Shown: positions 20,089-49,246 of the stretch, piece by piece | Numbering within the stretch: the stretch's first letter is position 1 | Layout of the letters: every line of letters starts with the position of its first letter | From: Symbiodinium natans | Lineage: Eukaryota; Sar; Dinophyceae; Suessiales; Symbiodiniaceae | Assembly: GCA_905221605.1 (NCBI GenBank) | Contig: CAJNDS010002629.1 | Span: 186,001-250,000, forward strand | Direction: 5' to 3' | Length of the DNA stretch: 64,000 nucleotides | Notes under the pieces: generated by a model | What the model saw: the letters and a program-made list of their open reading frames with translations, nothing else | Told to the model about the DNA's origin: nothing | Database searches by the model: none | Position numbers and translations under genes: made by a program

Positions 20089-20089
20089 G

Positions 20090-21442: not shown

Positions 21443-21520
21443 CAGGACAGCGGGGAAGAGTTTCACCCCCCGGGGAAAAGGCAGGGGGAAGCGCCAGTCA
21501 TTGAGACCAAGAAGGCCCTG

Positions 21521-22168: not shown

Positions 22169-22191
22169 CAAGTGCGAGTACGAGGCAACAC

Positions 22192-22653
22192 GTGCGTGGA
22201 GGCCTATACAACGACACGGAGGAAGATGGCCCGTTAACAGGGGAAGAACTGGTGCACCCGGCGAATGTCATCGCACTACAAGGAGAAGCACAGGAAGCCA
22301 CATCCAGACCCAGCCAGGCAACCAGCATGGAAGATTTGCGGGAAGCGAGGACCAGGCTGAGACACGTACTGGACTTCATGGAGCAGCCAGCAGCGGGGGA
22401 AATCAGAGCAGCCATACAGGCTATTGACAGGTGGATTGCAGCGTGGTGGGGACAAGAAGAGGCCGTCCACATGGTGGAAGACAGTCAAGAAGGGCGAGAG
22501 ACCCAGGGGGAGACGAAGGAGATGACAGAGACAGAGACAGCACAGGACCAGGGACCGGAAGAAGAACTGGAAGGCGGAACAGGCGAAGAAGAGGAAACGA
22601 GACCGCGAAACCATGAGGGGGAGAAGGACGGAGTTGACCGCCGGATGGAGTGA
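22192..22653 (+). CDS. LINE-2 distal ORF, unknown, acidic
   Basis: 153 codons with a GTG at 22192 and no upstream ATG in frame nearby. It has a helical segment (MEDLREARTRLRHVLDFMEQ, then IRAAIQAIDRWIAAWWGQEE) followed by a Glu/Thr-rich tail. It probably continues the preceding ORF through a frame change. No family recognised. Confidence 0.35.
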   Translation: MRGGLYNDTEEDGPLTGEELVHPANVIALQGEAQEATSRPSQATSMEDLREARTRLRHVLDFMEQPAAGEIRAAIQAIDRWIAAWWGQEEAVHMVEDSQEGRETQGETKEMTETETAQDQGPEEELEGGTGEEEETRPRNHEGEKDGVDRRME

Positions 22654-23185
22654 GAGAACATGACTCCGAACAACGAGACCAACTGAGTCGGAATGAAGAG
22701 ATGTGTACAGAGCTTTCCAAACACATGACGGCCTGAACGGGGGAGGGAGGTTCTCTTTCAGCAAGGGTCGGTGTAGTTTCGGTGATGGCAATAGGTGAGG
22801 GGAGTTCAGGCGCGAAATGTGGAATAGCCAGTAAGTAGAGCGCGCCCCAGCATGCTCAGGTGACTAAAGCTTGAATGGGGGGAGACTTTCTACTTTAGGG
22901 GTAGTTTTACTCGCAAGGGACAGCATGTTAAGAGGGGGGCAATCACTGAATTTCACCTCGAAACCCCAGGGGGAACACCATCCCAATAGGGGAAGCGAGC
23001 CCAACTGTGTGGCGTTGAAAATCTTGGTACTGCTGAATGTGTTTGGGTATAAAACAAGGGCCGCAGTACCCCGGGGGAACGAGAAGCAGTCTCACGATAA
23101 CAGTGAACTTGGGCGCGCCTAGGCGCGAGGGGGTCTCTCGGGCCCCCCCATGCCCAGCAGAAGAAGAAGAAGAAGAGATAGAGAG

Positions 23186-23452
23186 AGAGCGAGCCCACAA
23201 CAGCACCAGGGCCGATACAAACCAGAGCGGCCCTCATAAAATGACCAATGTGTCGAGGGCCCAGCTTTGACTGTGAGACCGGCGGGCCAGCGTGGCCGGG
23301 GCCTTCCCTCCTGGGGGGCCTTTTCGTGCTCAGAAGAAGAAGAAGAAGACGAAGAAGAAGAAGAAGAAGAAGAAGAAAGAGCGAGAGAGAGAAAGAGAGA
23401 AAGAGACACACATAATTACACAGAGAGAGAGAGAGAGAGAGAGAGACACAGA
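23186..23452 (+). mobile_element. Short truncated LINE tail copy
   Basis: About 100 bases of unique sequence sit between the LINE-2 tail (ending about 23185) and another complete tail motif. That motif is the exact 20-mer at 23282-23301, then CTTCCCTCCTGGGGGG, GAAGAAG repeats and (GA)n to about 23452. This is what a strongly 5'-truncated LINE insertion into the GA tail of LINE-2 would look like. Confidence 0.5.
23330..23452. repeat. GAA and GA microsatellite
   Basis: (GAA)n near 23330-23378, mixed GAGA/GAAA to 23410, then (GA)n at about 23420-23446. It is part of the LINE tail. Confidence 0.9.
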
Positions 23453-34370: not shown

Positions 34371-34375
34371 AGTTC
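34371..34375. repeat. Target site duplication, left copy (AGTTC)
   Basis: The five bases just before the left LTR are repeated exactly just after the right LTR (49242-49246). This is the 5-bp staggered-cut footprint expected of a copia-type integrase. Confidence 0.9.
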
Positions 34376-34483
34376 TGTTGTTACAGAAAGACATTTCATT
34401 ACTTACCGTTGTTCGCTCATGGCTCAAGAAAAAGGGCGTGTGCACGTTTCCCTAAATATTGGGGCTGTCTGCTGGTAACAATA
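34376..34483 (+). repeat. 5' LTR
   Basis: 108 bp, identical at every position to 49134-49241. It starts TGTTGTTAC and ends GTAACAATA, an imperfect terminal inverted repeat, so the ends are TG...TA rather than the usual TG...CA. It is very short for an element this size. It contains CCGT, ten bases, then TGGCTCAAG, which resembles the two ends of the dinoflagellate spliced leader at nearly the right spacing. Confidence 0.95.
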
Positions 34484-34495
34484 GGTTATCAGCCG
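34484..34495 (+). promoter_or_regulatory. Candidate primer binding site
   Basis: Directly inside the 5' LTR lies GGTTATCAGCCG. It resembles the TGGTATCAGAGC site of many copia elements, which pairs with the 3' end of initiator methionine tRNA, but it is offset and not identical. The position is right; the priming tRNA is unproven. Confidence 0.35.
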
Positions 34496-34524
34496 TAGTA
34501 CCACGCTAGTTTGACCACTCTGTG

Positions 34525-35274
34525 ATGACGGACCAAGCTCCGCTAGGTCCTGCAGGCATACCAGTCCCGGACGACGGAGCGAGCAACCTGAGCATGTCCT
34601 TTGATGGTAATGCTCCAGGTGAGGACGCCGCTCCCCGGGAGGGTGAGCTCCCGTTGACCACAACCGCACTAAGGCTACATGACCATAGGCTCTTTCAGAA
34701 GGGTGCAGTTTCCGAGGCCGGTGTCACCACCGGTGCCTCGAGCCGTCAGACTGCGTCCGCGCCTTGGCAGGTTGTGTCCCCTAGTGCTAGACAACCACCG
34801 GCCAGCCTTCCGATAGCAGCCGGAGGAAGCTCATCCCAAGATATTAGTCCGTCAGCCCAGAGTCTTTTCCCACCGACCTCCTCGACTATGAACAGTTTGA
34901 CAATCGGCGATCAGCGAATCCTGCAGAATCAAGCAAACATTAGCAATGTGTTTGTTCAGAACGACAGGTCGCCGTTACTCGAGCAAATAGCTGAACATCG
35001 CCACAATCAGATCATTGGTCAGATCGCAAACAATTTTCAGGAGCAACTCCAAGCAATGGGTATGAATGTCATGTCGGGAGTGTCACAACTCAGAGTTGAA
35101 CTTGCTCAGGCCGAAACCAGATTAGGTAGTGAGGAGACACAGGCCAGACAGAGATTGGCAACAGGTCAGTCGCAGCTTGACTCGCAGGCCAATGAGATCA
35201 ACGTGGCACGAGGTGAAGCTCAAGCTTTGGCCCAAAGACTAAGCGCTGCTGAGAGCCACGCTGACGCTGCGTGA
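34525..35274 (+). CDS. Gag N-terminal ORF, ending in a possible +1 frameshift site
   Basis: 249 residues from ATG 34525, only 41 bases after the LTR. The first half is Ser/Pro/Ala-rich and disordered-looking. The second half (from ERSPLLEQIAEHRHNQ-like sequence near residue 150) becomes a coiled coil (LRVELAQAETRLGSEETQAR, then ARGEAQALAQRLSAAESHADAA). It stops at GCG-TGA (35269-35274). The next ORF, one base forward, is open from 35243 and continues the same coiled-coil character (DQLHQAEAKAVSNADLL). This suggests one Gag protein interrupted by a programmed +1 shift; a one-base indel is the alternative. Independent start at ATG 35333 (GAA ATG G context) is also possible. Confidence 0.7.
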   Translation: MTDQAPLGPAGIPVPDDGASNLSMSFDGNAPGEDAAPREGELPLTTTALRLHDHRLFQKGAVSEAGVTTGASSRQTASAPWQVVSPSARQPPASLPIAAGGSSSQDISPSAQSLFPPTSSTMNSLTIGDQRILQNQANISNVFVQNDRSPLLEQIAEHRHNQIIGQIANNFQEQLQAMGMNVMSGVSQLRVELAQAETRLGSEETQARQRLATGQSQLDSQANEINVARGEAQALAQRLSAAESHADAA

Positions 35275-35276
35275 TC
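35269..35276 (+). promoter_or_regulatory. Candidate programmed +1 ribosomal frameshift site (GCG-TGA)
   Basis: The zero-frame ends GCG TGA; skipping the T gives GCG then GAT CAA CTT in the frame of the giant ORF. A sense codon followed by a stop in the A site is the antizyme arrangement, and GCG-UGA-C is, as I recall, the yeast OAZ1 site. The two frames overlap by only about 32 bases (35243-35274), so any productive shift must occur here. Confidence 0.5.
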
Positions 35277-35332
35277 AACTTCACCAAGCGGAAGCTAAGG
35301 CCGTCAGCAACGCGGATCTCCTCAATGCTGAA

Positions 35333-38300
35333 ATGGACAGTGCCCGTGTCGCCGCTGCTCAGGCAACACATGCAGTTCAGGCGACATCTGAGGTTGAGAT
35401 TTCACGCTTGACTGCTGAAGTTAGGGATTTCAGGGTGATGATGAGTCACGAGTCAGAGAAGAGAAAGATGGCTGAAAAGGAGAATGCTGAACTGAAATCG
35501 CAGCTAAACCAGGCCATCGCGGCTCTGCAGGCTCATGCAAGCGCAACGGGGTCCGCCCCATCTGCGCCACCGGGTCTGATCCCTACCTATCCCATCAATA
35601 CTCCGCCTCAGGACGCCAAAGGGTCAAGGCCCCGACGCCACCCTGACGGGGGAGGCCCTGATGGAGATGATGACGGCAGCGATGATGATGACTCGAGCAG
35701 CAGTCATAAGAAGAAAAAGAGCAAGAAGAAAGACAAGAAAAACAAGAAGAGGGATTCCAGTTCCTCTTCTGATCTCTCGCCCAAGCAGCTCAAGGCAATC
35801 ATCAAGCAACTTGCCAAAGGAAAGACTAACGAGAAGGAGGAAGTTGATGAGGATGTAAACAAGACCAAATCCAAGGAGGCCGAGAAGATCCTGTTCCCCA
35901 AGTTCCCGACACCTGAACAGTACAGGAACTGGCGAATTAGGGTTCGTGAAGCTGTAGTTGCAGCGTCCAATAAGCCGGATGAAGCTTTTGAATGGCTTTC
36001 GAAGGTATGGGACAAGGACTCTAAGGAAGAAGAGTTAAGGGACACAGGTGGCTTCTCTACTCTCGATGCCAAGGTCTTGTCGGCAGTGACAAATGTCCTT
36101 GAAGGTGACTTCGCGCGCCAAATGGACACCCTCAAGGAGAGGGAGGCTCACGCCGGGAGGCTAGTGAGGGGTAGACAAATCCTGTTTCTCCTTCATCAGC
36201 ACTTTGCTACAAACATCCTACACAATTCCGTGTATGACATGGAAGACCTCCTTTCAGTGACATTGGTAAACGAAAACCTTGTGATGTTCGTTAGGAACTG
36301 GGATACGGTGCTTTCAGGCATTCAGACCACCCCTGAAGACAAGGTTCTCGAACCGCTCTTTCATAGGCAGGTAAAGAAATGCAAAGCACTTCAGCACGAT
36401 ATTGCCATCTATGAAAGGGCTGCCGAAGGCTCCAGTGAAAGATCGTTTAAATTTCTCTACGACGCCGCCAATAGCCACTTGAATCGAAAAAGGCTCGAGA
36501 GGAACCGGGAGCGGATTGCCAAGCAAACTGGAGCTCCTGCTGTTCCTACTGCGCCTGCACCCAAGAAAGTACCCAAAGGGTTTTGCATCTCTTTTGTCAA
36601 GAACGGCAGTTGCAAGAATGGTGGCAGTTGTAAATACAAGCACCAGACGCCCAGCGGACGTGGCAGATCGCAGTCACCCGGCGGAGGCCGAGGGAGAAGT
36701 CCTTCAAGACCCAACTCCCCGTCAGGAAAGCCTCGAGTGTGCAAGTTCTACAAACAAGGTCGTTGCGACCGTGGAGAGAATTGCAAATTCATGCACACCG
36801 GAAAGCCAGGTGCCGCTGCTACACCCGACGGAAGTCAGAAGGGATCTGCGCGCCCTGACAAGGGCAAGGACAAGAAGAAGAAGAAGGAACGCAAGGGCTC
36901 CAGGGCTAGCTCCAAGGGTTCTAAGGGAAGCAAGGGTTCGAAAGGATCACATGGCTCCGGGAACTCGAAGGGCTCAGCTCGAAGGAGGAGTGGCGGACCT
37001 TCTCTCCCTGCAGCAGTTTGCCTTCTAGGAGCAATGATGGCCGGCACGGCTTCCCAAGCCGACGCTTTTACTCTCCGGAAGGATGAGTCGTACTGGCCCC
37101 CTCAGTGTTCCACTGACATGCGTTTGGCGCTACCAGCAGTGTCTTTTGACAACAGCCCAATGTACATCAACTTCCCACTCAGAGATGGAGAGCTTAAGTT
37201 CCCTGTTGAGAATCCTCAGCGCAGGTATGACAAGAAGTGGTCTGTTGACTACATTCCCAAGCCAGACAATCAATCCACCAGAGATGCACTTATGGCCGCT
37301 CGCATGTTGAGAGCTACGGTCAAAGACAGTCTGGAGGACAAACCAAGCCGTTGCAATTACTGTTGCGATACGGAGTTTGGTTGCAACTATTGCATTCCAA
37401 AAGGGTTGAGAGTGTCTTGTCCCGCTAAGGTTCAACTATCATCAGAATCGCCACCCATCGAATGGATTGGTGACACAGGGAGTGCTCAGGATCTCATCTC
37501 AGAGCGGGAGCTTGTGAATCTGCATCCGTACGAATCGGACTGCCCAATCAACATTTGCACTGCGAATGGACCGAGTTACGCAGGCACGCAATGTGATGTA
37601 GGGATACCATCCCTCAACAGCATAGCCAAGCCTTATGTTCTCCCCGACACTCCCAATGTTCTTTCAGTAGGACAGAGATGCATGGATCTGGGTTACGACT
37701 TCATTTGGAAAGGATTTCAGAGACCCTATTTCAGGAGTCCGGGAGGTGACAAGGTTTTCCTTGATGTGAAGGATAACGTTCCGTACTTGAAGTCTTGGAA
37801 GGAGGGTATCGCTTGTCCTGCCCATTCAAGACACGAGTCTACTCGGATCGATACGGATGATGCTGTTGAGACCATCACCAACCCTGAACAGATTGCCGCG
37901 CAACTTATCCAGGAGCAGGATTTCTCCCATCAGGCATGCTTGCGATTGCTGAAGGACTCAAACTTTAAGCAATCTAGGTTCAACAGGAAAGCCATCAAAC
38001 CGAAGGACAGTAAGGACTCGAAGTACATGATTTTCGGGGCTTTTTCACATGGGGGGATGCAAGGGATAACCAATCGCACTCATTCCTACCCCAAGGTGAT
38101 TAAGTACCTTCTGTCCTATCTTAAACATCATGGAGCGGATGGCCCAATAACATCGATTGCTGTCAATCAGAACTCAGGCGTTAAAATGCACAAGGATGTC
38201 AACAATCACCGTGAACACCTCAACTACACCATTGCAGTCGGCGATTTCACCGGAGGCGAATTGTGGATTCACGATGACACCATCCGGAAGGATGAGCCAG

Positions 38301-41300
38301 GTTGCATCAACAAGATCGCCCCCACTGGTGCCAAACTGGGAGGTCGTTTGCACAGGTCGAAGTCGAAGATCATTTCCTTCGATCCAAAGACTTTCCATTG
38401 CGTCACTCCCTGGAAGGGCGAGCGTTGGAGCATCACGGGATACGTCAATCGCGCTGTGCACAGGCTGGATTCGCATCAGCTAGAGAAGCTTAAGTCACTG
38501 GGGTTCTTGCTGCCGAAACAGAAGAACTTCCCTCCAGCAGTGCCTGCGGAAATCGATGAGGAGATGACTCTTTACGAGTTAGCTACTATGGATCCTCCAG
38601 CTCCGGCCCCAGAACCGAAAAGCAAGCCTAAAGTGAAGTTGAAAAAAAAGCCTGAGGAACCCTCAGACAAGAAGAAGATTGCCAAAGAAGCCTCCAAAGC
38701 CGAACCACCTTCGGATGAACCAGATTGGTCAAAAGTCGAGGGGTTATTGAAAGAAGCTGTTGCCCCCATCCCTTCATCTCCGGATGAAGAGTTCCTTGAT
38801 AAAACGGAACTGATCAGGTCGCCGAAACCCGATTCAGGTGAGCCGAGCGTCCTCCCTCCTCCTCCGGAAGGAGAGAGGCATGCTCCAGATGGGGATCCTG
38901 GTGAGGGTAGTGGTGGGGAAGGCAAGAGGTCGAGGCGCATTGAGAATTTGAAGAAAGAAGCCAAGTCAGCGGCGCATCTCATGACGCACCTTCCCAAAAA
39001 TCCATTCTGTGATGTTTGCCAAAGAGCTAAGATGTACAAGCCGCCTTCGTACCAAACGGATGGCTGGCACAGCGTCGAAGCTAAGGCGTTTGGAGACCAT
39101 ATCACTGCGGATCACATCATTGTGTACCGTGATAGGGATACGGTTATAGAAGAATCCAGATTGGCCCTCGTACTGAAGGATGTTGCGACTTCTTTTACGT
39201 ATGCCTACCCTTCAGCACTGAGGTCAGAGGATGAGTGCATTGCAGCATTGCAACATTTCGTTTCCTCCTCTGACGAGGTAGGGGTATTCTACAGCGATCA
39301 AGCTAAAGAACTCATCTCTGCCGCCAAGTTCTTAGGTTGGAGACATGAACAATCCAAAGCGTATATTCATCAATCCAACGCGATCGCAGAACGCGCAGTG
39401 CGCGCCACCACCGAGGGTACTAGGAGCAATTTGCTTCAGGCCGGGCTCTCGCATGTGTACTGGCCACAGGCTCTCGAGCATGCGTGTACCGCTGTGAATA
39501 TAAGTAACCCCCATGGGGCGAAGTTTACACCGTGGTTCAAGCGTTTCGGGAGCCAGTTCCCGGGAAAGGTCATTCCCTTTGGTTGCAGAATCGACTATTG
39601 GGTTGGACCCAAGAAAAAGCGCAAGAATCGTGAAAGGTTCGAGCCAACTGCTGAACCAGGTGTTTTCGTGGGATATCATTTTCAGCCGGGCATGAAATGG
39701 AAGCACGAGGTATTGGTTCTTTCACTGAAAGAGTTAAATCGACAGGACTTCCATGAATGCATCAAGCCCATAAGAGCATACCAGTTCAAGGTGCCTGAAG
39801 GTGATTTCACTTTTCCCATGAAACAGAGGTACGAACGTGTGCAACAAGGTCTCGCTGCCGATGCCCTCGAGCGACCAGCGACGGAGTCACTCCACAATCA
39901 GGACGCTGAGCCCTCAGCTGAACAGGCCGCTGAAGCTTCTGACGCCGACCGGAAGGTTGAGCCCCCTAAAGTTCTTCACCCCAAAACCGGCAAGGAGATT
40001 CCTCTGCCGGAAGGTGGGAGGTACTATGATTCGGGGGGTACACTAGGTCGTCGCTACGGGGGGACTAGAGGTTCTAGAAAGCCGGACAGCATTCCGAGCG
40101 ATCTATGGGTCCGTCTCTCTAAAGCACAAAAGGAGAAGGCCATTGATGATGAGGCTCGAGAGCAAGCTTTGAGAGATCTCGAGGCCCGAGAAACTCCCTC
40201 GTCAAGTAGCAGCGCCAGGCCATCTGCAGTAGCTAATCCGGTTAAAGATGAATGGACAATTCGGGGGGATAAGCTCATCCGCTTTCACTACTCTCCGAGA
40301 CGTGAACTGTTCTCCCCTCATCTCACTGATTGTCCTGTTCCTATCTCCGCTCTTGGTAAAGAGAGATTGACCAAAATCATGCCAATTGGAGGTAAGGACA
40401 TCATAGCCGATTGTGATGAATGGCGTCATGTACGCAAGCGCAACAAGAAGCTCAGCTTCAAATGGGTTGGTCGTACTGAGTTCGACATCCTTACCAAACC
40501 CCACACTTCGGAAGAAGCTGTTAAAGATTTCCCATGTATGCCTACGGTTCCCATGTCCAATCATCAACATAGGGACAAGATCCCTGTTTCCCGCGCTCTT
40601 ACTGCCGAGCAAGTTCAGGAAGCTATGGCTATGGTTGCCAGGCCAGTAGGAAGAAAAGAGCTGTTAGCTGATCCTCAGGCCCAAGCTTCTCTTGACGTTG
40701 AATGGGAAAAGTTGATGAAGAAGAAAGCCTGGGACATGTCATCTGTTCGTGAATGGGAAGAAGTCTCTAAAGAGGCAGCCAAAAGAGGAAAGAAGGCCCA
40801 CGTTGGCAAAATCTTTGAAATCTGCGTGGAAAAGGGCAGTGAGCTTCCTAAAGGGAATCCCTTACGGAAGTTCAAGGGTAGGACCGTCTTTCAGGGCAAC
40901 AATGTGAAGGACGAGAACAATGACACCGCTCTCTTTAGTGAGCTGGGCTCTAGTCCCGCCACCATGGAAGCGGGTAAGGTTCTCGACGCCTATGGCCATG
41001 CCCCCGGCCACGATGTGGAACAGGGGGATGGTAAACAGGCGTACACGCAAACGACTCTGAAAGGCGCTGACACTTGGGTCAGGCTCCCACGTGAGCGTTG
41101 GCCTAAGGAGTGGGTCGGCAAGTTTAGGGACCCCGTCGTCCGCCTCAGATTGGCTCTTTACGGGCACCCAGACAGCGGGGGCTTCTGGGAGCAACATTGC
41201 GAAAAGCGCTTGCGGGAGGTTGGTTTTGAGCTCGTGTTTCCCGCTGCATGGCCATCTGTCTTTTATCATCCCACATTGAAGCTTTTATTAGCCGTGTATG

Positions 41301-44300
41301 TAGATGATTTCAAGATGGCCGGGCCAAAAGAGAACCTAGCCAAGGGTTGGGAACTCATCGGCTCTCGCATCGATATGGATACACCTACTCCCATCGGAAG
41401 ATATCTGGGATGTGAACACTTATCTCAGTCTTCATCGCTTGGAAAAGCCGATCATCCTTTTGCGCATGTCTTCGACAAATCCCTTCCTGATCCCGCTGCC
41501 AAACCTGCCACTGCCGCAGCCAAAGAAGATTTCACCGAATACTACCCTGAAGAAGGGATGGTTGTCCGACATCACGTTCAGCCCCGCAAGGCGTTGTTCA
41601 AGCCTCGCGCGGCGGAAGCCGTCGCACTTGACCTTAGTCCGCACAGACTCACATTGATGCGCCCTCTAGGTTCTGAGGCCGCGCCAGACGAGCTCTGGGA
41701 CACGGGGGGTGCTAAGCACAAACGTGATCACTTATGGACAGGTGCTACTTATCTTGCCGCCAACGGTCACACCGAGCGTTCCGCAATGGCAGCCGTGAAA
41801 AAGATTAGAGACAAACTTAATGCCAAGAAAGCAGCCCGCAAACACGCTTTCTATGATGTCAATCAGTTGAGTGATCATCAGGGTTGTATGTATGCTAAGA
41901 CCAGACAAGTCGTCTATGACATGAGTTCCTTCTTGCAGCAGGCCATCGACCGCTACAAAGAACTCACTGGTCCCGAGTGGCATAACCTTAAAAAGGTATC
42001 AACGCCCTTCTATGATGACAAAATCGCTCGCCCCACTGACGCGGAGGCTGAACCCAAAGGCAAGCTTGCTCCTATTGCGAGTCGTGTGCTCATGAAGTTG
42101 CTGTTCGCAGCAAGGATGGCTCGTTATGACTTATTACGTGCTGTCCAGGGTTTAGCTAGCCGGGTCACTAAGTGGTCTGCCGACTGTGACAAGGCACTGC
42201 ACAGACTCATGTGTTATGTGGCGTCCACTCTTGACCATCGAATGACCTGCTTTATAGGAGACTCCCTTGATAAGTGTAAGCTCTGGCTGTTCGCTGATTC
42301 TGATCACGCAGGCGAACATGACAACAAAAGCACTTCAGGAGGTTTCCTCGCGTTGGTAGGACCCAACACCTACTTTCCCTTGTCCGCTTTTAGCAAAAAG
42401 CAAACGAGCACCGCGCTTAGTTCCACTGAAGCAGAAGTCGTATGTGCGAACGTTACTCTGCGAGCCTTGGGTCTTCCTTCATCTGCACTATGGAGCGTGC
42501 TCCTGAACGCGGGGGGGGATACAGCTCCCAAGCCTCTTCGTAGTGACATTGCTAAGCACGATTTCAAACCCAAATCTTATCCTTTCCAGGGAATCTCGAC
42601 CATCAACAAGACAGGACGTCATCTCCTTGCAGACGGAAGGATTGTGGAGTTTTTTAGCAAAAGTAGCTCTTTACCCTTTCCCGTTGAGCTGACTAGTCAC
42701 CCTATTAGGGATCTTTGGTTACTCCAAAAGGGGAAGTGGACTTTGCATCAAAGGGCGGTTGCTTGGGAAGAATTGGATGAAGACGAACGCACTCTGCCTC
42801 CAGATGATTTCGAGTATGGCATCCTCGTGTATAGAAGGTCCACCGCAGAATACCGCCGCCACGCGGAAGCGGAGGCCATCCTTCAGAGGGAAGCCGAGGG
42901 CATAAGGGGTTCGGGGGGTGGTGTCGATACTGAGGTTGGAGTCACTAGGAAACCTTGCGACTTCGGACTAATAATGTCTGTGCCTCATTCGATTCAGCCA
43001 GTTGTCTTAGAGGATAATCAGGCCACCATCCGCATCCTAGAGTCTGGAAAATCCCCAGCCTTCCGTCATTCTGACAAGACTCAAAGAATCAATTTAGGAT
43101 GGATCGCAGAGCAGTTTCGTAGGAAGCACTATGACCTTGCTTACATCAACACCAATCTTCAAGCTGCTGACATCCTTACAAAACCCTTTACCAATGCTGA
43201 AAAGTGGCGAAATGCCTTGCTATTGATGGGAATCACTCAGCGGAAGCTCGAGAGCCGTAAGGCTACACCGGCCAGCGTTCCGCCACCCGCCGTTGCGAGC
43301 GACTCGAGGCCCGACAGCAAAACGAAGCGGGTCATTATAGAGGTTTGCTGTAGTGATGACTCCATCATTGGGGAAATAGCTCATCATGAGTTTCCCGAGT
43401 GTAAGGTAGTTAGAGTCACCGAAAGCATGGACCTTAACTCACCAGATACCCGTAGAGCCATCATCGACATTGCTAAAGAACACCACCGAGCTGGCGCTCG
43501 TGTTCTAACATGGGTTAGCTTGCCTTGCACTGGTGGCAGTCAATGGACTAGAATCAACCTTAAGGTTCCCAAAAATAGAGATGCTGTGCTTGATGCCAGA
43601 AGAAAGTTCAAGAAGTTGTGGGCATCATTCGTTGATCTTTCTCAGGGCCTTGATAAGGCGTCCGTCGACTACTGTGTTGAATGGCCAAGGGACTGTGAGT
43701 ATTGGGGATGGGACAAAGTGAGGAAGTGGCTTGATAGGCATCCGTTTGTTTATGCCAAATTTGATGGTTGCAGGTTCGGATTGCATAACAAGAAGGGTGT
43801 TCCCGTGAAAAAGCCGTGGTGTGTTGCCACTACCCTTCAAACAGTGTACAATCGTCTCAATGACAAAAAGTGCACTCGTAGCCACGAGCATGCTAAATGC
43901 CTGAAGGAATCAGAAAATTACAGTAAACCTCTTGCACGGGCTATTCACAAAGCCTTTAAGGAAGTGAACTCCTCTGCAGCGGCTAGATCAAGCTCCCCTG
44001 TAGTCCCAGCGTGCCCAGCCATCATCACCTCGCCGACCATGACCGAGTTTCTGACTGACGAGGAACGCCAGCAGCGTGTCGCGGAGTTCAAGCAAGCGCT
44101 AGTGGACCCCGACCGCCTGGCTGACGCCATGGCTGGCATCCTTCTTCCACGGAGTTTCAGTGACCTGGCGGAAGCTGTGGTTGAGCCACAGGATGACGAT
44201 GCTGACGACGACTTATTTCTCGGCACAATTCCCATCTACCGCTGGCGGGAGCTGCGTGAAGAGGACCCTTCGTCCCATTGGACGGTGCTTTACGAGCGAT

Positions 44301-47300
44301 TCTATCGCAAGCACGGAGTCCGTGTGTTTTCGGAGACCGAGATTGATGCCTCCGTGCTTCGTGACTCCACCCTGGGGGGTTGGATACAGATCCTTTACCG
44401 ACATGCTCAGGATCTGGCCACCCTGGCGTTTGGACCGAAGGCGGGCGGTGCAATCGATTCCACTAAGCACTATGACATTTGCCGCAGAATTGCCAATCTT
44501 AGCGTAGGCGCTTCCGACTTCCAATATTTTGCGAAGACTTCGAGTCTTGTCGAGAAGCTCTTTACTCCTGCCCTTCAGCGCATTTCACTCCCTCCGGAAG
44601 AGAGGCGACGGTTCTTGATCGTCGGAGACTCTTCCCTTGCGTTGTGCCATTACACGGGGCGGAAGCCTACGCACCGCATGACCATTGAGCCGCTCATGCA
44701 AGACGTTTTCAGGAACAATCCAGAAGTGGAGAGCCTAATCTACTCAATGAAGTGGGGGTATCACCTCGACCAGCTCATCGATGAGGCGCTCAAGCACCTT
44801 AACGAGGCGAGGGATCACCACCCGGAAGGGGCGGCTACCCACATCATTTTTGGATGGTCAGGAAACGATGTATGGGGCCAACACGGCTATCATGGCTACA
44901 CTTGGCATCTTCAGAGCAAGTTCACAAAGCGAACAGCCGAGGAGCTCGAGCAGATTGACACTTGGCCTGCAAAGCAGAAGCTTCGTGTTGATCGGGCGTG
45001 TGAGAGAGCGTGCAAGCTCCTCCACCGGACTGACGTCTCGGGTGTGTCTTTCTTGATGGGCAGCCATCACTCCTGTTTCTTCCCGGTCGGGGAGCTCTAT
45101 GACAGGTGCATGAAGAATCACGCCCGAGATCTGATGAGCGGAGGATGCACCATCATTGACCCTGTGGAGCTCTATGAGCAGACCAGCAGGCCTGATGGCT
45201 TCCACGCTGACGCGTCGGATCAAAATCTGCAGAGCACCCTTAGGTGGCACGCGGCGATGCTCCGCGGCATACTCACAGATTACCGCCTTCTCGCTGTTGA
45301 GCAGCAACTCATCGCAAATCAAAGAGAAGCCGTTTTTCATGCACACTTTGTGTTGAACAAGCCCGAACCGTTCCTCACCGTGCCCCCTGCGTCCGGTAGA
45401 ATCCTTTCCAAGATTGTCGATTCACCGGACCCACCTCTGGCGAGGGAGGCAGAAGAGGAGATTGTGTTGGCCGGTCCACTCCTGGCGGAGGCGGAGTACG
45501 AAGTTGTCGACGACGACTCGGCTCAGAGCTGCAATCCGCAGCCCATCACTGAGTTAGACTTTGCCAGGAATGACACCAGGCCTGGCGCAGGTTGCGTCCT
45601 CGCGATTGAAGACAGCGACCCGATCAACGTGGTTGCTGAGGAACACCTCGTCATGGCCAACCAAGCGGCAGAGGGCATCACGCAGGAAGAACTCACCGCG
45701 GTCGCGGCTGAAGAGGAAATTACCCTCCTCAGTCAATTCGTGGAGCAGGATGATGATCCATATGAGAATGCCGACACCTACTCCTTGAAGAGAGCTGAAG
45801 TGGTCGCGCCTCCTTCTCCCGTGGTCGTCATCAGTGACCCCGACGCCCCTCAGCCGAGCGAGGCCGTTTCTCAGGCACCCCTTGTCCCCAAGGCAAAGCC
45901 GAGGCCTCCCACGCTGCCGCGTTGGGTTACTGCCGATCAGCTCCCCGATCTGCCGGATGATTACCGTTTCCTCACGGAGAACGCCCGGGTCTGCTTGTCG
46001 AAGAAGATGTCCTTCCTTGCCCGGGGATTCGCCAATCGGCGAGCGCCAGAAATGGCGGTCCACATCTCAGCCAGGGACAATTCTATTGAATGGTCCGAAT
46101 TTTTCGAGAAGTTGGGAATGATGTGGAGAGGCCTCCGTGTGGAGCACGTGGTGGACGTCCTCAAATCCACTCACGACAAAGTGCGGTTCGAAGTCAAGGT
46201 TGTCATTAAACCCGACAGGGAGGTCCAGCTGCGTGCCTTTAGAGCGATTCAGGGGCACGACGGCATACTCCTCTCGGAAGAGACGGACGTGATGGCACTG
46301 AACACCCACTCGTACCATCTGTCCTCTCTTTGGCAACCCAATTTGGCAAACAGGCCCAGGGTGGGAACCACTGGTTACACCAGCGAGGCCTTCGAAAGCA
46401 TGCCAAAGTTGGCTTACCACGGCACGTATCGTTGCTATCTGCACTCCATCGTTCGAGATGGTCTCATCCCGGGAGGGGTTGCTGCAGATGGAAGTGCCAG
46501 CCGTTACTTCGTGATGATGTCTCCCGTACCGGCGTGGCAGAGGGAGAGTCATGCAGGCGTTCGTGAAGATGCTGACATTGAATTTGTCATCGACCTGCAA
46601 CTCGCAGCCCTGGAGGGCGTGCGGATCTTTAGATCCAAGGCAGATGCAATTCAGACACCTGACTGGATTTCCAACAGGTACATTGTTTACTGCTATGATC
46701 GCCACTCCCAGGTTCCCATCTGGCACAACCGTGTGTACGAGCTGCTCCGCGTCCGACTGCACAATGCGTGCAAGGATGTTCACGACGGGCGGGAGCCGCG
46801 TCCAATCTTCGAGCAGGGCCATTTGGACGATTGGTCGGAGGAGGGTTGCTACCTTGACTACCTCGAAAGCCTCCAGACCAGGCTCAACTTCCATGAGTAC
46901 CGGCACTACATCACTGACATGACAAGGCCGTACCAAATCGCCCATGAAGAGAACCTCACGGTTGAAGATGAGATCATCAGGCTCGAGGACCTCAAGTTCG
47001 CCGACAACGCACCGCGGCCCGAGCCACTGGCGGAAGCCAAGTGGGGTTCCACGCTCAAGGTGTGGTTCTCCGCAAAGGGCATCCGAGTGGATCGAAAGTA
47101 CCGCTCCGAGCTCGACCATTTCATCGTCCAGGAGCTTGTTTCCTTTCCCTGGTTTTACTGCACCAGTTGCCGTAAACATTACATCGATGGAATGATTGAG
47201 TGCCAGTTCTGCGGCTCCAGAATCGCAGCTGAGAGTGACATGGCACATGTTGCCGAACCCAGCAAACGACGCCTGGAGTCCTCCCGGAAGGGACGGAACA

Positions 47301-48751
47301 TCGACATCATGTCGATCGCCCCCCGGCCGGGGTTGGCAATGAACCGGCACCGTGCAGAGCGAGGAACGCGCGAAGCACAAGATCAAAGTCTCCCTGCAGC
47401 AGTACGCAGCAAATGCGTGAGCATGAGAAAATCGGCAATGAAGAGGGGAGGCCAGTCGATCGCTGACGCTCTCACCAATCCCCTCGACGCCTACAATTTT
47501 GCGTCCCGTGGTATGGGTATCACTTCATTGGCCCAGCTGGACATGTTCGCCCATTTGCACAATCCAGCACCCGGGGCTGATGCCAACGAGAGGAGAGCAT
47601 TCGCTGGCACTCACCGGGCTGACGCCAGAGTCTCAATCGCCTATCGTCCGGGAGACGACCGAGTCTCATTGGATGAAGCTTTCTTTGTGGCCTTTCAGTC
47701 AAGGCTCTATCTCATTGATGAGATATCCATGATCATCTATGCCACCCAGCAGTCCCCGGAAGGGCGACAGAGACCCTTCACGATTCTCTCTTACGATGGT
47801 GACTTGTTCACACCAAGGGTAGGCACCGTCTCAGAAGTGATGGCGGAGGTCAGTCGTTTCTTCCAGGATCAACTTCCCCTGAGCGGAAGCCGTCAGGATC
47901 CTGCACCACGCCACGTGGACTTGGCTCGATCTCTCCGCATCCCTGACGGGTTTGCTTGCCTCGGTCAGACCCAATTGAATGAGCTGCTCCGCGATACCAG
48001 GTTTTACCAGCGGTATCTGCACTCCAACCGTGTCGAGCCGGAGTGGATTCGTCCCACGAGAGCGTCCTCACTCGGAATGATGCGACCTCCTCCTCCTCCC
48101 ACAGCTGATCGCAGAAGCTCAGCGCCGGCCCGTCGCCCAGCGGAAGCTGAAGGCTACCGCCCACCGACAGCAAAGTACGGGCCTTCTATGGGAGCGAGGG
48201 AGCGCACGCCGTCAAGGGCTACATCGAGGGGCAGATCTCCAGGTCTCAGCTCAGCAATGCCTGCGAGGCCACCGCCACAGCGCAGGGCTTCGACCCCGCG
48301 GCCTCCGCCAGTGCGACGCCCGGGTTCCCCTGGAGAGGTGCGCACATCCCGCAGACGCGTGGATCCCACTGGACCAAGCATGACGGAAGGAGAATGGTTG
48401 GCCGAGAGGCGCAGCCGAGTCGATGTCGAGATTGGGAAAAGGCTCAGCATTCTTCAGGAACTCTTTGCTGACCTTCCAGAGCACTACCCTTTCGACCATG
48501 ATGGTGATCTCATCGACCCGACGCGGACGCGCTCGAGCACCTGGACCCTTCTTGACGGGTACTACTGGGCCATGCTCAAGGCCCGGGATGCGCACTGGGT
48601 GTCGGAAGAAGAGGTGGTGAACGCCCTTCCTGCTTGGGGAAACCCAGGGGGGATCGTCGTCTACGACTACGACCACGTGTTGTGGTATCTCAGAGGATGG
48701 AAACACCACGTCACGAATCCACACACTGGTGTGCAAGAGAGGCGGTACTAA
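35333..48751 (+). CDS. Giant Gag-Pol polyprotein (copia type) with accessory enzyme domains
   Basis: 4,472 residues from ATG 35333; with the +1 shift the frame begins at 35273 and the fused product is about 4,741. Residue numbers here count from 35333. Order: coiled coil (1-75), charged linker, capsid-like (188-400), two CCCH fingers (418-488), Lys/Gly/Ser-rich linker, hydrophobic patch (about 559-580), protease (D714-T-G), 2OG-oxygenase-like (898-1040), integrase (1215-1470), RT (YVDD 1989-1992), RNase H (D2322, E2366, D2561), methyltransferase-like (2667-2875), SGNH-like (3090-3315), Tpt1/KptA-like (3550-3790), zinc ribbon (3943-3960), then an unassigned C-terminus with a Pro/Arg/Ser-rich linker (about 4250-4340) and a last globular piece. 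It stops 382 bases before the 3' LTR. The protease is expected to cut the polyprotein; which extra domains are released is unknown. Confidence 0.95.
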   Translation: MDSARVAAAQATHAVQATSEVEISRLTAEVRDFRVMMSHESEKRKMAEKENAELKSQLNQAIAALQAHASATGSAPSAPPGLIPTYPINTPPQDAKGSRPRRHPDGGGPDGDDDGSDDDDSSSSHKKKKSKKKDKKNKKRDSSSSSDLSPKQLKAIIKQLAKGKTNEKEEVDEDVNKTKSKEAEKILFPKFPTPEQYRNWRIRVREAVVAASNKPDEAFEWLSKVWDKDSKEEELRDTGGFSTLDAKVLSAVTNVLEGDFARQMDTLKEREAHAGRLVRGRQILFLLHQHFATNILHNSVYDMEDLLSVTLVNENLVMFVRNWDTVLSGIQTTPEDKVLEPLFHRQVKKCKALQHDIAIYERAAEGSSERSFKFLYDAANSHLNRKRLERNRERIAKQTGAPAVPTAPAPKKVPKGFCISFVKNGSCKNGGSCKYKHQTPSGRGRSQSPGGGRGRSPSRPNSPSGKPRVCKFYKQGRCDRGENCKFMHTGKPGAAATPDGSQKGSARPDKGKDKKKKKERKGSRASSKGSKGSKGSKGSHGSGNSKGSARRRSGGPSLPAAVCLLGAMMAGTASQADAFTLRKDESYWPPQCSTDMRLALPAVSFDNSPMYINFPLRDGELKFPVENPQRRYDKKWSVDYIPKPDNQSTRDALMAARMLRATVKDSLEDKPSRCNYCCDTEFGCNYCIPKGLRVSCPAKVQLSSESPPIEWIGDTGSAQDLISERELVNLHPYESDCPINICTANGPSYAGTQCDVGIPSLNSIAKPYVLPDTPNVLSVGQRCMDLGYDFIWKGFQRPYFRSPGGDKVFLDVKDNVPYLKSWKEGIACPAHSRHESTRIDTDDAVETITNPEQIAAQLIQEQDFSHQACLRLLKDSNFKQSRFNRKAIKPKDSKDSKYMIFGAFSHGGMQGITNRTHSYPKVIKYLLSYLKHHGADGPITSIAVNQNSGVKMHKDVNNHREHLNYTIAVGDFTGGELWIHDDTIRKDEPGCINKIAPTGAKLGGRLHRSKSKIISFDPKTFHCVTPWKGERWSITGYVNRAVHRLDSHQLEKLKSLGFLLPKQKNFPPAVPAEIDEEMTLYELATMDPPAPAPEPKSKPKVKLKKKPEEPSDKKKIAKEASKAEPPSDEPDWSKVEGLLKEAVAPIPSSPDEEFLDKTELIRSPKPDSGEPSVLPPPPEGERHAPDGDPGEGSGGEGKRSRRIENLKKEAKSAAHLMTHLPKNPFCDVCQRAKMYKPPSYQTDGWHSVEAKAFGDHITADHIIVYRDRDTVIEESRLALVLKDVATSFTYAYPSALRSEDECIAALQHFVSSSDEVGVFYSDQAKELISAAKFLGWRHEQSKAYIHQSNAIAERAVRATTEGTRSNLLQAGLSHVYWPQALEHACTAVNISNPHGAKFTPWFKRFGSQFPGKVIPFGCRIDYWVGPKKKRKNRERFEPTAEPGVFVGYHFQPGMKWKHEVLVLSLKELNRQDFHECIKPIRAYQFKVPEGDFTFPMKQRYERVQQGLAADALERPATESLHNQDAEPSAEQAAEASDADRKVEPPKVLHPKTGKEIPLPEGGRYYDSGGTLGRRYGGTRGSRKPDSIPSDLWVRLSKAQKEKAIDDEAREQALRDLEARETPSSSSSARPSAVANPVKDEWTIRGDKLIRFHYSPRRELFSPHLTDCPVPISALGKERLTKIMPIGGKDIIADCDEWRHVRKRNKKLSFKWVGRTEFDILTKPHTSEEAVKDFPCMPTVPMSNHQHRDKIPVSRALTAEQVQEAMAMVARPVGRKELLADPQAQASLDVEWEKLMKKKAWDMSSVREWEEVSKEAAKRGKKAHVGKIFEICVEKGSELPKGNPLRKFKGRTVFQGNNVKDENNDTALFSELGSSPATMEAGKVLDAYGHAPGHDVEQGDGKQAYTQTTLKGADTWVRLPRERWPKEWVGKFRDPVVRLRLALYGHPDSGGFWEQHCEKRLREVGFELVFPAAWPSVFYHPTLKLLLAVYVDDFKMAGPKENLAKGWELIGSRIDMDTPTPIGRYLGCEHLSQSSSLGKADHPFAHVFDKSLPDPAAKPATAAAKEDFTEYYPEEGMVVRHHVQPRKALFKPRAAEAVALDLSPHRLTLMRPLGSEAAPDELWDTGGAKHKRDHLWTGATYLAANGHTERSAMAAVKKIRDKLNAKKAARKHAFYDVNQLSDHQGCMYAKTRQVVYDMSSFLQQAIDRYKELTGPEWHNLKKVSTPFYDDKIARPTDAEAEPKGKLAPIASRVLMKLLFAARMARYDLLRAVQGLASRVTKWSADCDKALHRLMCYVASTLDHRMTCFIGDSLDKCKLWLFADSDHAGEHDNKSTSGGFLALVGPNTYFPLSAFSKKQTSTALSSTEAEVVCANVTLRALGLPSSALWSVLLNAGGDTAPKPLRSDIAKHDFKPKSYPFQGISTINKTGRHLLADGRIVEFFSKSSSLPFPVELTSHPIRDLWLLQKGKWTLHQRAVAWEELDEDERTLPPDDFEYGILVYRRSTAEYRRHAEAEAILQREAEGIRGSGGGVDTEVGVTRKPCDFGLIMSVPHSIQPVVLEDNQATIRILESGKSPAFRHSDKTQRINLGWIAEQFRRKHYDLAYINTNLQAADILTKPFTNAEKWRNALLLMGITQRKLESRKATPASVPPPAVASDSRPDSKTKRVIIEVCCSDDSIIGEIAHHEFPECKVVRVTESMDLNSPDTRRAIIDIAKEHHRAGARVLTWVSLPCTGGSQWTRINLKVPKNRDAVLDARRKFKKLWASFVDLSQGLDKASVDYCVEWPRDCEYWGWDKVRKWLDRHPFVYAKFDGCRFGLHNKKGVPVKKPWCVATTLQTVYNRLNDKKCTRSHEHAKCLKESENYSKPLARAIHKAFKEVNSSAAARSSSPVVPACPAIITSPTMTEFLTDEERQQRVAEFKQALVDPDRLADAMAGILLPRSFSDLAEAVVEPQDDDADDDLFLGTIPIYRWRELREEDPSSHWTVLYERFYRKHGVRVFSETEIDASVLRDSTLGGWIQILYRHAQDLATLAFGPKAGGAIDSTKHYDICRRIANLSVGASDFQYFAKTSSLVEKLFTPALQRISLPPEERRRFLIVGDSSLALCHYTGRKPTHRMTIEPLMQDVFRNNPEVESLIYSMKWGYHLDQLIDEALKHLNEARDHHPEGAATHIIFGWSGNDVWGQHGYHGYTWHLQSKFTKRTAEELEQIDTWPAKQKLRVDRACERACKLLHRTDVSGVSFLMGSHHSCFFPVGELYDRCMKNHARDLMSGGCTIIDPVELYEQTSRPDGFHADASDQNLQSTLRWHAAMLRGILTDYRLLAVEQQLIANQREAVFHAHFVLNKPEPFLTVPPASGRILSKIVDSPDPPLAREAEEEIVLAGPLLAEAEYEVVDDDSAQSCNPQPITELDFARNDTRPGAGCVLAIEDSDPINVVAEEHLVMANQAAEGITQEELTAVAAEEEITLLSQFVEQDDDPYENADTYSLKRAEVVAPPSPVVVISDPDAPQPSEAVSQAPLVPKAKPRPPTLPRWVTADQLPDLPDDYRFLTENARVCLSKKMSFLARGFANRRAPEMAVHISARDNSIEWSEFFEKLGMMWRGLRVEHVVDVLKSTHDKVRFEVKVVIKPDREVQLRAFRAIQGHDGILLSEETDVMALNTHSYHLSSLWQPNLANRPRVGTTGYTSEAFESMPKLAYHGTYRCYLHSIVRDGLIPGGVAADGSASRYFVMMSPVPAWQRESHAGVREDADIEFVIDLQLAALEGVRIFRSKADAIQTPDWISNRYIVYCYDRHSQVPIWHNRVYELLRVRLHNACKDVHDGREPRPIFEQGHLDDWSEEGCYLDYLESLQTRLNFHEYRHYITDMTRPYQIAHEENLTVEDEIIRLEDLKFADNAPRPEPLAEAKWGSTLKVWFSAKGIRVDRKYRSELDHFIVQELVSFPWFYCTSCRKHYIDGMIECQFCGSRIAAESDMAHVAEPSKRRLESSRKGRNIDIMSIAPRPGLAMNRHRAERGTREAQDQSLPAAVRSKCVSMRKSAMKRGGQSIADALTNPLDAYNFASRGMGITSLAQLDMFAHLHNPAPGADANERRAFAGTHRADARVSIAYRPGDDRVSLDEAFFVAFQSRLYLIDEISMIIYATQQSPEGRQRPFTILSYDGDLFTPRVGTVSEVMAEVSRFFQDQLPLSGSRQDPAPRHVDLARSLRIPDGFACLGQTQLNELLRDTRFYQRYLHSNRVEPEWIRPTRASSLGMMRPPPPPTADRRSSAPARRPAEAEGYRPPTAKYGPSMGARERTPSRATSRGRSPGLSSAMPARPPPQRRASTPRPPPVRRPGSPGEVRTSRRRVDPTGPSMTEGEWLAERRSRVDVEIGKRLSILQELFADLPEHYPFDHDGDLIDPTRTRSSTWTLLDGYYWAMLKARDAHWVSEEEVVNALPAWGNPGGIVVYDYDHVLWYLRGWKHHVTNPHTGVQERRY
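35894..36532 (+). other. Capsid-like domain of Gag
   Basis: Residues about 188-400. It opens FPKFPTPEQYRNWRIRVREA, matching the 'F..W...' start of copia Gag (UBN2/DUF4219-type) domains, and continues with helical text (AFEWLSKVWD, RGRQILFLLHQHFAT, LVMFVRNWDTVLSG) to the zinc fingers. Assembly into particles is inferred from family and position. Confidence 0.6.
36584..36796 (+). other. Two CCCH zinc fingers in Gag
   Basis: C418-X8-C427-X5-C433-X3-H437 and C470-X7-C478-X5-C484-X3-H488, separated by an Arg/Ser/Gly/Pro-rich linker. Both fit the CCCH RNA-binding finger (C-X7-8-C-X5-C-X3-H). Copia nucleocapsids normally carry a CCHC knuckle (C-X2-C-X4-H-X4-C) here; none was found. The fingers probably bind the element RNA. 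Confidence 0.8.
37439..37790 (+). other. Retropepsin-like aspartic protease
   Basis: IEWIGDTGSAQDLIS contains the catalytic D714-T-G, followed by YVLPDTPNVLSVGQRCMDLGY. The latter matches the 'vp....NLlSv..l...G' segment of copia proteases. Position between Gag and integrase is normal. It would act as a dimer to cut the polyprotein. Confidence 0.8.
38024..38455 (+). other. 2-oxoglutarate/Fe(II)-dependent oxygenase-like domain
   Basis: Residues about 898-1040 hold the ligand set of this superfamily. KMHKD gives H953-X-D955, GGELWI follows at 974-979, FDPKTFHCVTPWKGERWS gives the distal H1022, and R1031 sits nine residues on to bind the 2OG carboxylate. Spacing H-X-D to distal H (about 67 residues) is in the family range. 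No such domain belongs to standard copia proteins. The substrate cannot be read from sequence; oxidation of nucleic acid bases or of protein are both possible. Confidence 0.72.
38975..39740 (+). other. Integrase (HHCC and DDE)
   Basis: H1215-X3-H1219-X6-C1226-X2-C1229 is a shortened HHCC zinc site. The catalytic triad is D1260 (ITADHI), D1322 (YSDQAKE) and E1353 (NAIAERAVR), with spacing D-61-D-30-E; the last gap is shorter than the usual 35. The C-terminal FGCRIDYWVGPKK and PGVFVGYHFQPG match the copia integrase tail. It would insert the cDNA, consistent with the 5-bp duplication. Confidence 0.88.
40703..41480 (+). other. Reverse transcriptase
   Basis: KKKAWDMSSVREWEE is followed by KFKGRTVFQGN, motif A with D1899 (EQGDGKQAYTQ in place of DVKNAFL), LRLALYGHPDSGGFWE (the copia 'LYGLKQ..R.W' region) and catalytic YVDD at 1989-1992. 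RT precedes RNase H in copia order. The spacing from YVDD to RNase H is about 330 residues, longer than usual. Confidence 0.88.
42276..43215 (+). other. RNase H, with a long internal insertion
   Basis: LFADSDHAG (D2322), KSTSGGFLALVG, SKKQTSTALSSTEAEVV (E2366), then after about 190 residues VLEDNQATIRIL (D2561), KTQRINLGWIAEQ and ADILTKPF. All are classic copia RNase H motifs. Between E2366 and D2561 the usual gap is about 40 residues, so roughly 150 residues are inserted. The inserted text contains HLLADGRIVEFF and DLWLLQKGKWTLHQRA and is not recognised. Confidence 0.85.
43331..43960 (+). other. C5-cytosine-methyltransferase-like domain
   Basis: A Rossmann-type start VIIEVCCSDDSI (motif I, residues about 2667-2677) is followed by a second strand VVRVTES and, at the expected distance, LPCTGGSQW with P2731-C2732, the place of the catalytic Pro-Cys of motif IV. 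VEWPRDC with E2783 may correspond to the E of motif VI, and DGCRFGL follows. The target recognition region is unclear, and the motif VI text differs from the canonical ENV. C5 methyltransferases have been reported in dinoflagellate retrotransposons, which supports the reading. Activity is unproven. Confidence 0.6.
44606..45275 (+). other. SGNH/GDSL hydrolase-like domain
   Basis: Three of the SGNH blocks are in order: FLIVGDSSL (block I, S3100 as nucleophile), FGWSGNDVWG (block III, G-X-N-D with N3178), and RPDGFHAD (block V, D3288-X-X-H3291). A strand before block V (GCTIIDPVELYE) also fits. About 190 residues separate the serine and the catalytic pair, normal for the fold. Family members deacylate lipids, sugars or proteins; the substrate here is unknown. 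Confidence 0.68.
45986..46700 (+). other. Tpt1/KptA RNA 2'-phosphotransferase-like domain
   Basis: LSKKMSFLARG (residues 3555-3565), RAFRAIQGHDG (3634-3644), AYHGTYRCYLHSIVRDGL (H3696-G-T) and, later, EFVIDLQLAALEGVRIFRSKADAI line up with the LS..LS..LRH, RA.QGHS, HGT....I...GL and 'D...A...G...F.S.N.V' blocks of Tpt1/KptA. These enzymes use NAD+ to remove an internal 2'-phosphate from RNA. The His of the family's RH pair is replaced by Gly (R3564-G3565), so activity may be altered or lost. Confidence 0.75.
47150..47225 (+). other. Small zinc ribbon in the C-terminal region
   Basis: C3943-X2-C3946-X10-C3957-X2-C3960 (FYCTSCRKHYIDG ... ECQFCGSRI). It lies between the Tpt1-like domain and an unassigned globular region. 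Confidence 0.6.
47500..48751 (+). other. Unassigned C-terminal region of the polyprotein
   Basis: A globular stretch (SLAQLDMFAHLHNPAPGAD, FFVAFQSRLYLIDEISMII, FTILSYDGDLFTPRVG) of no known family, then an extended Pro/Arg/Ser linker, then a final compact piece (LSILQELFADLPEHYPFDHDG ... GGIVVYDYDHVLWYLRGW). Both ends are Trp/Tyr-rich and look folded. Confidence 0.5.
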
Positions 48752-49133
48752 GGCCTAAAAGGAGGCATGGTCAGGGTTGCACACTCCACCCTGACGGGTC
48801 GGATTCGCCGACCCAGCACTTTTGAGCAAATTGTTTTCGTTCTTTGCATTTCTGATTCCATCAGCCTACGTGTGTGTGCCCGTGCGCCGCACTGCATCTC
48901 CTTCGCCGCTCTGACGAGCTGGCTACACAGTAGCAGTTGTAGTCAGTTTCTATCCTCAGGGTAACAGGTGAAGAGCACCTCCCTGACGGGCTGGATTTAT
49001 TTTCAGCTGGTTATGTGAGGTGAAATTTCCTCAAGATGCAGTCGTTTTGCGTACTAGGTACGACTGTAGCGAACATCGTTTGTCTTTCCTCAACTTTTGA
49101 CGCCTCTTACGTTGCACTAAGTTGCGCGGGGGG
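48752..49133 (+). other. 3' untranslated region of the LTR retrotransposon
   Basis: 382 bases between stop and 3' LTR. It contains a perfect 7-bp hairpin (48796-48814, GGGTCGG/CCGACCC around ATTCG). A motif CTGACGGG-YYGGATT occurs at the hairpin and again near 48981-48997. It ends in GCGCGGGGGG, the polypurine tract. Confidence 0.6.
49124..49133 (+). promoter_or_regulatory. Polypurine tract (plus-strand primer)
   Basis: A run of six G (49128-49133) directly abuts the 3' LTR, the position from which plus-strand synthesis is primed. It is shorter and more G-only than typical. Confidence 0.6.
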
Positions 49134-49241
49134 TGTTGTTACAGAAAGACATTTCATTACTTACCGTTGTTCGCTCATGGCTCAAGAAAAAGGGCGTGTG
49201 CACGTTTCCCTAAATATTGGGGCTGTCTGCTGGTAACAATA
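49134..49241 (+). repeat. 3' LTR
   Basis: Base-for-base identical to the 5' LTR over 108 positions. Because both LTRs are copied from one template at insertion, identity indicates a young copy; at 108 bp the age resolution is low. Confidence 0.95.
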
Positions 49242-49246
49242 AGTTC
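49242..49246. repeat. Target site duplication, right copy (AGTTC)
   Basis: Same five bases as 34371-34375. Removing the element restores a continuous empty-site sequence CTTGAAGTTCTTGCC. Confidence 0.9.

Follow-up and report, generated by a model that had tools for sequence, protein, structure and literature searches.

The 64,000-nucleotide window analysed here (positions 186001-250000 of contig C2317 in a 759-Mb assembly, which was the genome searched) holds what is almost certainly a young member of a giant Ty1/copia family that was active until recently in Symbiodinium natans, and judged together with this anatomy, diverged copies very probably show purifying selection on all four of its accessory enzyme domains. 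The element spans 34376..49241 and is complete, with an LTR pair, 5-bp duplications on both sides and the main ORF between them. Its features, in window coordinates, are as follows.

34371..34375, no strand: left target-site duplication AGTTC, flanking the 5' LTR
34376..34483, + strand: 5' LTR, 108 bp, from identity with the 3' LTR
34525..35274, + strand: N-terminal Gag ORF, 250 codons, judged coiled-coil-like by eye and separated from the main ORF by a small deletion in the window copy
35333..48751, + strand: main ORF, 4,472 codons, in the order Gag-PR-2OG-INT-RT-RH-MTase-SGNH-KptA-zinc ribbon
36584..36796, + strand: two CCCH zinc fingers, residues 418-437 and 470-488
37472..37486, + strand: protease active-site motif DTGSA, residues 714-718, by motif
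37970..38512, + strand: 2OG-Fe(II) oxygenase domain, residues 880-1060 (H953, D955, H1022, R1031), by PF13640 and conservation
38975..40012, + strand: integrase region, HHCC, with D1255, D1322 and E1353 chosen by eye, by motifs only
40868..41431, + strand: copia-type reverse transcriptase (RVT_2), YVDD at residues 1989-1992, by profile
42293..43186, + strand: RNase H region, residues 2321-2618, with a long insertion, by motifs only
43322..43984, + strand: C5-methyltransferase-fold domain, residues 2664-2884 (C2732, E2783), without target recognition domain, by predicted structure and motifs
44603..45277, + strand: SGNH hydrolase domain, residues 3091-3315 (S3100, G3142, N3178, D3288, H3291), by predicted structure and motifs
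45974..46726, + strand: Tpt1/KptA-like domain, residues 3548-3798 (R3564, R3637, H3696, R3744), by PF01885 and predicted structure
47159..47212, + strand: CxxC...CxxC zinc-ribbon-like motif, residues 3943-3960, by motif
49134..49241, + strand: 3' LTR, 108 bp, from identity with the 5' LTR
49242..49246, no strand: right target-site duplication AGTTC, flanking the 3' LTR

The outer coordinates given in the earlier note proved exact, as the two LTRs are identical at 108/108 bases and AGTTC stands on both sides. The motifs follow the Ty1/copia order PR-INT-RT-RH, with integrase upstream of an RVT_2-type reverse transcriptase and RNase H after it. RVT_2 scored 27.4 bits on the window ORF, under its cutoff of 31.6, and 33.5 bits, over that cutoff, on the homologue P0002. 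The integrase region had no Pfam match, a whole-ORF NCBIfam scan of the main ORF returned 0 families, and a PHROGs search gave weak unnamed matches only. Two stretches, the insertion inside RNase H (42530-42967) and the C-terminal region beyond the zinc ribbon (47213-48748), had no Pfam family in the ORF scan. Elsewhere in the window, 12920-15676 holds a LINE-type ORF (RVT_1 80 bits, weak endonuclease matches), and 15816-23902 has a strong A-skew and contains a 120-bp tandem repeat and an ORF of 1,368 codons that matches no Pfam family.

The element had been described as having a single 4,472-codon ORF between its LTRs; that ORF was found, but the unbroken frame is longer, 2/10 copies being open over 4,751 codons without a break. 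In the window copy, a frameshifting deletion of ~14 nt (relative to a sister copy, from alignment lengths) splits the Gag ORF off the main ORF, at a point across which the relatives' gene models are continuous. The sequence at the Gag-ORF stop resembles a yeast antizyme-like site; a programmed +1 frameshift from the Gag ORF into the main ORF was dropped as an explanation, because the relatives' models and those 2/10 copies are continuous and the window copy carries the small deletion. In the window copy the break in the frame falls in gag, yet the LTR pair is identical, and the frame is broken somewhere in 8/10 copies.

All four accessory domains that had been called by motif (2OG, C5-methyltransferase-like, SGNH and Tpt1/KptA) lie inside the element and its reading frame. 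Profile searches of the four residue ranges gave matches for two, 2OG (at the cutoff only) and KptA, and structure prediction gave matches in the PDB for three: MTase, SGNH and KptA. The KptA alignment was the sole one of the four with a PDB sequence-profile match; those of MTase and SGNH gave nothing significant, nor did that of 2OG, whose alignment A2 matched unrelated parts as a profile. Conservation outside 2OG was counted in a 26-row alignment, A3, with rows gapped at a site excluded from that site's count. Catalytic residues are conserved in relatives that are mostly 23-59% identical to the window piece.

For residues 890-1045, the 2OG-Fe(II) oxygenase call is supported by a PF13640 match on the excised piece (E 9.2e-6, 27.0 bits, exactly at the cutoff of 27). 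PF13640 was absent from the listing of the whole-ORF Pfam scans, and the relatives' domains scored 20.7-25.9 bits, under the cutoff, or gave no match. The iron triad HxD...H and the 2OG-binding Arg are invariant in 6/6 rows of A2, which is built without P0007, a gene model that misses part of the domain. Among the copies the triad is kept in 10/10 and the Arg in 9/10 (one R1031H), while in a distant relative, P0048, Arg replaces the first His of the triad. The structure model is of poor confidence (mean pLDDT 45), too poor to judge a double-stranded beta-helix fold. As far as is known, PF13640 is not the TET/JBP family.

Residues 2660-2880 were confirmed as a C5-methyltransferase-like fold by comparing the predicted structure with the PDB. 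The fold is nearest to C5 enzymes, with the PC of motif IV and the Glu of motif VI; no C5 enzyme was among the 50 best Foldseek rows for the model, and the assignment rests on a second-look PDB alignment and the motifs, the former covering Foldseek matches only, such that families outside that listing may also fit. Three members gave no Pfam family, PF00145 included, at E up to 10. The domain is ~220 residues long and lacks a target recognition domain, with 186/327 M.HhaI residues aligned. Cys and Glu are each present in 19/20 A3 rows reaching the site; P0004, a relative representing 468 member sequences, is without both.

Predicted structure against the PDB likewise supported SGNH hydrolase for residues 3085-3320, where blocks I (GDS), II (G), III (GND) and V (DxxH) and the fold are all present, and where conservation is near complete (Ser 22/22, Asn 23/24, Asp 25/25, His 25/25).

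Residues 3545-3795 were identified as Tpt1/KptA both by predicted structure against the PDB, with a two-lobe fold, and by PF01885; in BFVD, the match list is headed by proteins named Tpt1/KptA from large DNA viruses and one baculovirus. Conservation in A3 is high (Arg1 24/24, Arg2 20/23 with 3 Lys, Arg3 18/18, HGT His 19/19), and the window family keeps the Arg residues and the HGT motif, which engages NAD+. Its Arg-His-Arg-Arg tetrad is incomplete, with three Arg present and the His absent (R-G-F); that position is Gly in 23/24 A3 rows and Asp in one. Because the tetrad His is absent, we class the domain as Tpt1/KptA-like rather than Tpt1. Some copia families carry LRGH at this motif, so the His may be shifted, and LRH is found in LINEs and in a free-standing 323-codon Tpt1 (L039), perhaps the host Tpt1 gene. 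In the parts of PMC6333775 that bear on this, the tetrad His of Tpt1 makes contact with the junction 3'-phosphate alone, and losing it affects step 2 threefold, though the four residues together are described as essential. Given the absent His, an internal 2'-phosphate junction may not be the substrate of the window family's domain.

To place the element within its family, we compared copies across the genome. An LTR-leader query found 14 places including the window, at 87% or more over nearly the whole query length among 40 scored rows, and the window plus 9 of the other 13 places were examined. All 10 copies have identical LTR pairs and a 5-bp target-site duplication. The element aligned at full length to 8/9 copies on other contigs (one with an insertion of ~300 bp), and the ninth, C1767, has a 3' internal deletion; the accessory domains are present in other copies. 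Neither outcome that the earlier note named as refuting its reading was therefore seen, since profile matches were obtained as well. Of 27 catalytic or metal sites, all are kept in 8/10 copies, one copy having R1031H (2OG) and another missing sites, including part of KptA, by deletion. The 10-bp flanks of C1767 and C2034 (2/10 copies) resemble CCCTAA-type, telomere-like repeats.

Against C2467, the most diverged copy, the window element gave pN/pS values of 0.08 for 2OG (3 vs 10 changes), 0.07 for MTase (4/15), 0.08 for SGNH (3/10) and 0.14 for KptA (6/13), alongside 0.04 for RT (3/24), 0.04 for INT (4/27) and 0.17 for PR, with each domain deviating from the neutral split (P 5e-5 to 2e-14). 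The calculation covered 7/45 possible pairs, C1767 being in none because its 3' part is deleted. Two further pairs with C2467 gave 0.08-0.24 for the four domains, the highest being KptA at 0.24 (C2233-C2467), and in closer pairs with few changes 2OG reached 0.37 in one and 0.56 in two. Such selection, like the conservation of the catalytic residues, shows only that the domains matter; the roles suggested in the earlier note, escape from host silencing or repair of the element's RNA, would be conjecture. At ORF nt ~10000-10500, C2233 has 26 differences from the window in 500 nt, but 7 from C2467, a mosaic pattern as expected from template switching.

A whole-protein search returned 25 homologous proteins, those named S. 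natans, which point to the host, having best local identities of 93 and 99%. All are gene models, part of them truncated or spliced, and one, P0003, apparently represents the annotation of copy C2467. BLAST with the window pieces (E up to 1e-3) found MTase in 20, SGNH in 17, KptA in 17 and 2OG in 6 of the 25 proteins, and the order MTase-SGNH-KptA is identical in 12/12 proteins having all three. No relatives were confirmed among viral contigs searched with the MTase, 2OG and SGNH alignments or among prokaryotic contigs searched with the MTase alignment.

Within the genome, the window KptA domain had at least 100 matches (140/150 candidates scored), at least 36 of them in open frames of at least 3,000 codons (counted by hand). 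PF01885 gave 474 candidates; 150 were scored, 150/150 over the cutoff, with 26 of these loci in frames of at least 2,900 codons (counted by hand). The family is greatly expanded in one genome, including in many ~650-codon ORFs of no assigned kind. Five of the 150 scored loci, picked by frame length and not randomly, were inspected. One (L037:1-7998) belongs to a different copia family with the order INT-RT-RH-2OG-SGNH-KptA, seen over 2,666 of its 2,937 frame codons; it has 2OG after RH and no MTase match at E up to 1, so that 2OG occupies the position of MTase in the window family. In two others (L036:3925-7998 with L040, and L035 with L041), KptA lies upstream of an Exo_endo_phos endonuclease and RVT_1, identifying them as LINEs; it shares one open frame with EEP/RVT_1 by coordinates (3,125 and 4,767 codons), scores 117 and 138 bits and retains the LRH motif. 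The fourth (L038) is a 651-codon ORF with KptA, in whose next 4 kb two of three ORFs of at least 200 codons were scanned and gave no family; the fifth is the free-standing Tpt1. The four-domain combination singled out in the earlier note is present here but is not unique to this element: as judged from these sequences, the domains belong to a module common to, and reshuffled among, copia families of the same genome, and KptA is also carried by two LINEs.

Taking anatomy, selection and mechanism together, the explanation set out here is our best one, with the balance slightly in its favor; its mechanistic part is tentative, and we hold it with less than even confidence. The accessory domains would be produced and packaged within Gag-Pol and travel with Pol, the protease would release them, and they would then act on the element's own RNA/cDNA and on carrier membranes. 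KptA would most likely target a phosphate, in the RNA template or at the ends of nucleic acids, and would either remove 2'-phosphates that would stop reverse transcriptase or cap ends with ADP-ribosyl. LINEs prime at the target and copia elements replicate in particles, so their common ground is the RNA template, reverse transcriptase and cDNA, and finding KptA in both suggests that its substrate is RNA or an end phosphate. MTase and 2OG would most likely modify RNA/cDNA bases, allowing the product to pass as host nucleic acid, and SGNH may assist membrane or lipid steps, as proposed for the esterase of non-LTR retrotransposons. CG methylation is described as widespread in Symbiodinium (in the parts of PMC5890265 used here) and 5-hmU as preferentially on repeats in Breviolum (likewise for PMC11071213); we hypothesize that MTase and 2OG may write such host-like base marks.

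Chance capture of the extra domains, or an assembly chimera in the window copy, we take as refuted and give practically no weight: the element aligns along its whole length to all but one of the nine copies on other contigs, the exception having its 3' internal deletion, and the domains recur in diverged families and show purifying selection. The four-domain element is not a chance product, a conclusion supported at the sequence level by copies, homologues and pN/pS. The domains might instead lack catalytic activity and serve an over-long Pol as scaffolds or RNA-binding spacers, selected for fold and not for chemistry, as the missing tetrad His, the lost MTase Cys and Glu of P0004 and the MTase without a target recognition domain would suggest; catalytic residues conserved across relatives of low identity, and all 27 sites kept in most copies, argue for chemistry, and we consider the scaffold explanation unlikely.

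A further possibility is that the kit targets host proteins or defense rather than its own nucleic acid, countering silencing by attacking host factors through ADP-ribosylation, hydroxylation and deacylation. Protein modifiers do occur among 2OG oxygenases and among ADP-ribosyl-transferase folds. SGNH enzymes work on esters and lipids (PMC5408684, in the description compared). Against this, the matched Tpt1/KptA structures act on RNA/DNA phosphates (structure titles, and PMC6333775 in part), and KptA occurs in LINEs and copia elements, which share template, reverse transcriptase and cDNA; we judge host targeting improbable. Returning to action on the element's own nucleic acid, a wider reading, which we consider doubtful, is that unrelated dinoflagellate retrotransposon classes have converged on a common nucleic-acid kit. 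KptA-type phosphate/ADP-ribose chemistry would then routinely accompany reverse transcription in LINEs and copia, and the hidden C5-MTase and 2OG of copia would write host-like marks on RNA/cDNA, adding to the unusual methylation and hydroxymethyluracil landscape of these genomes.

The window element resembles Ty1/copia in its domain order, its RVT_2 relationship and its 5-bp target-site duplication. A usual copia element is ~5 kb; at ~15 kb, this one is about three times that length, and its single frame holds four accessory enzyme domains. Other retroelements are already known to have captured SGNH and C5-MTase domains (in the parts compared of PMC5408684, PMC3905857 and PMC5890265), while two features appear to be new, namely all four domains in the polyprotein of an LTR element and the occurrence of KptA in two classes of retrotransposon; a literature search, outside most subscription papers and all preprints, found no paper by title on KptA, Tpt1 or RNA 2'-phosphotransferase with retrotransposon, or on dioxygenase with retrotransposon. 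In contrast to the Tpt1/KptA RNA 2'-phosphotransferase as described in the relevant parts of PMC6333775, the window domain has its tetrad His replaced and is embedded in a retrotransposon polyprotein. The four domains are under selection and swapped between families of one genome, and the presence of KptA in LINEs as well as copia suggests a requirement that reverse-transcribing elements have in this host.

SymbioLINE-Dnmt, SymbioDIRS-Dnmt3 and KnitGypsy-Dnmt3 are dinoflagellate and charophyte retrotransposons with a C5-methyltransferase in their ORFs (PMC5890265, in the parts compared), and the window element likewise carries a C5-MTase fold within a retrotransposon ORF. Those belong to the LINE, DIRS and Gypsy types and have PF00145, whereas this one has a copia reverse transcriptase, LTRs and no PF00145, its C5-MTase fold being minimal, undetected by Pfam and accompanied by three more enzyme domains. 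In the same parts of that survey, Copia of the other Symbiodinium genomes studied had no DNMT domain; as the fold is invisible to Pfam, surveys with PF00145, such as this one, may have missed methyltransferases in those elements. The non-LTR retrotransposon esterase is also an SGNH hydrolase in a retrotransposon, with a proposed lipid role, but it is a LINE ORF1 protein, and the other domains of the window's kit are not mentioned in the part of PMC3905857 compared. Bdelloid rotifer LTR retrotransposons have captured an SGNH/GDSL hydrolase, common also to other retroelement classes, but they carry a GDSL esterase or DEDDy, one or two enzymes encoded by an ORF3 of their own, with no MTase, 2OG or KptA mentioned in the description compared (PMC5408684). 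The enzyme-capturing retrotransposons of PMC5890265 and PMC5408684, as far as compared here, have one or two enzymes each; the window element has four in a single Gag-Pol polyprotein.
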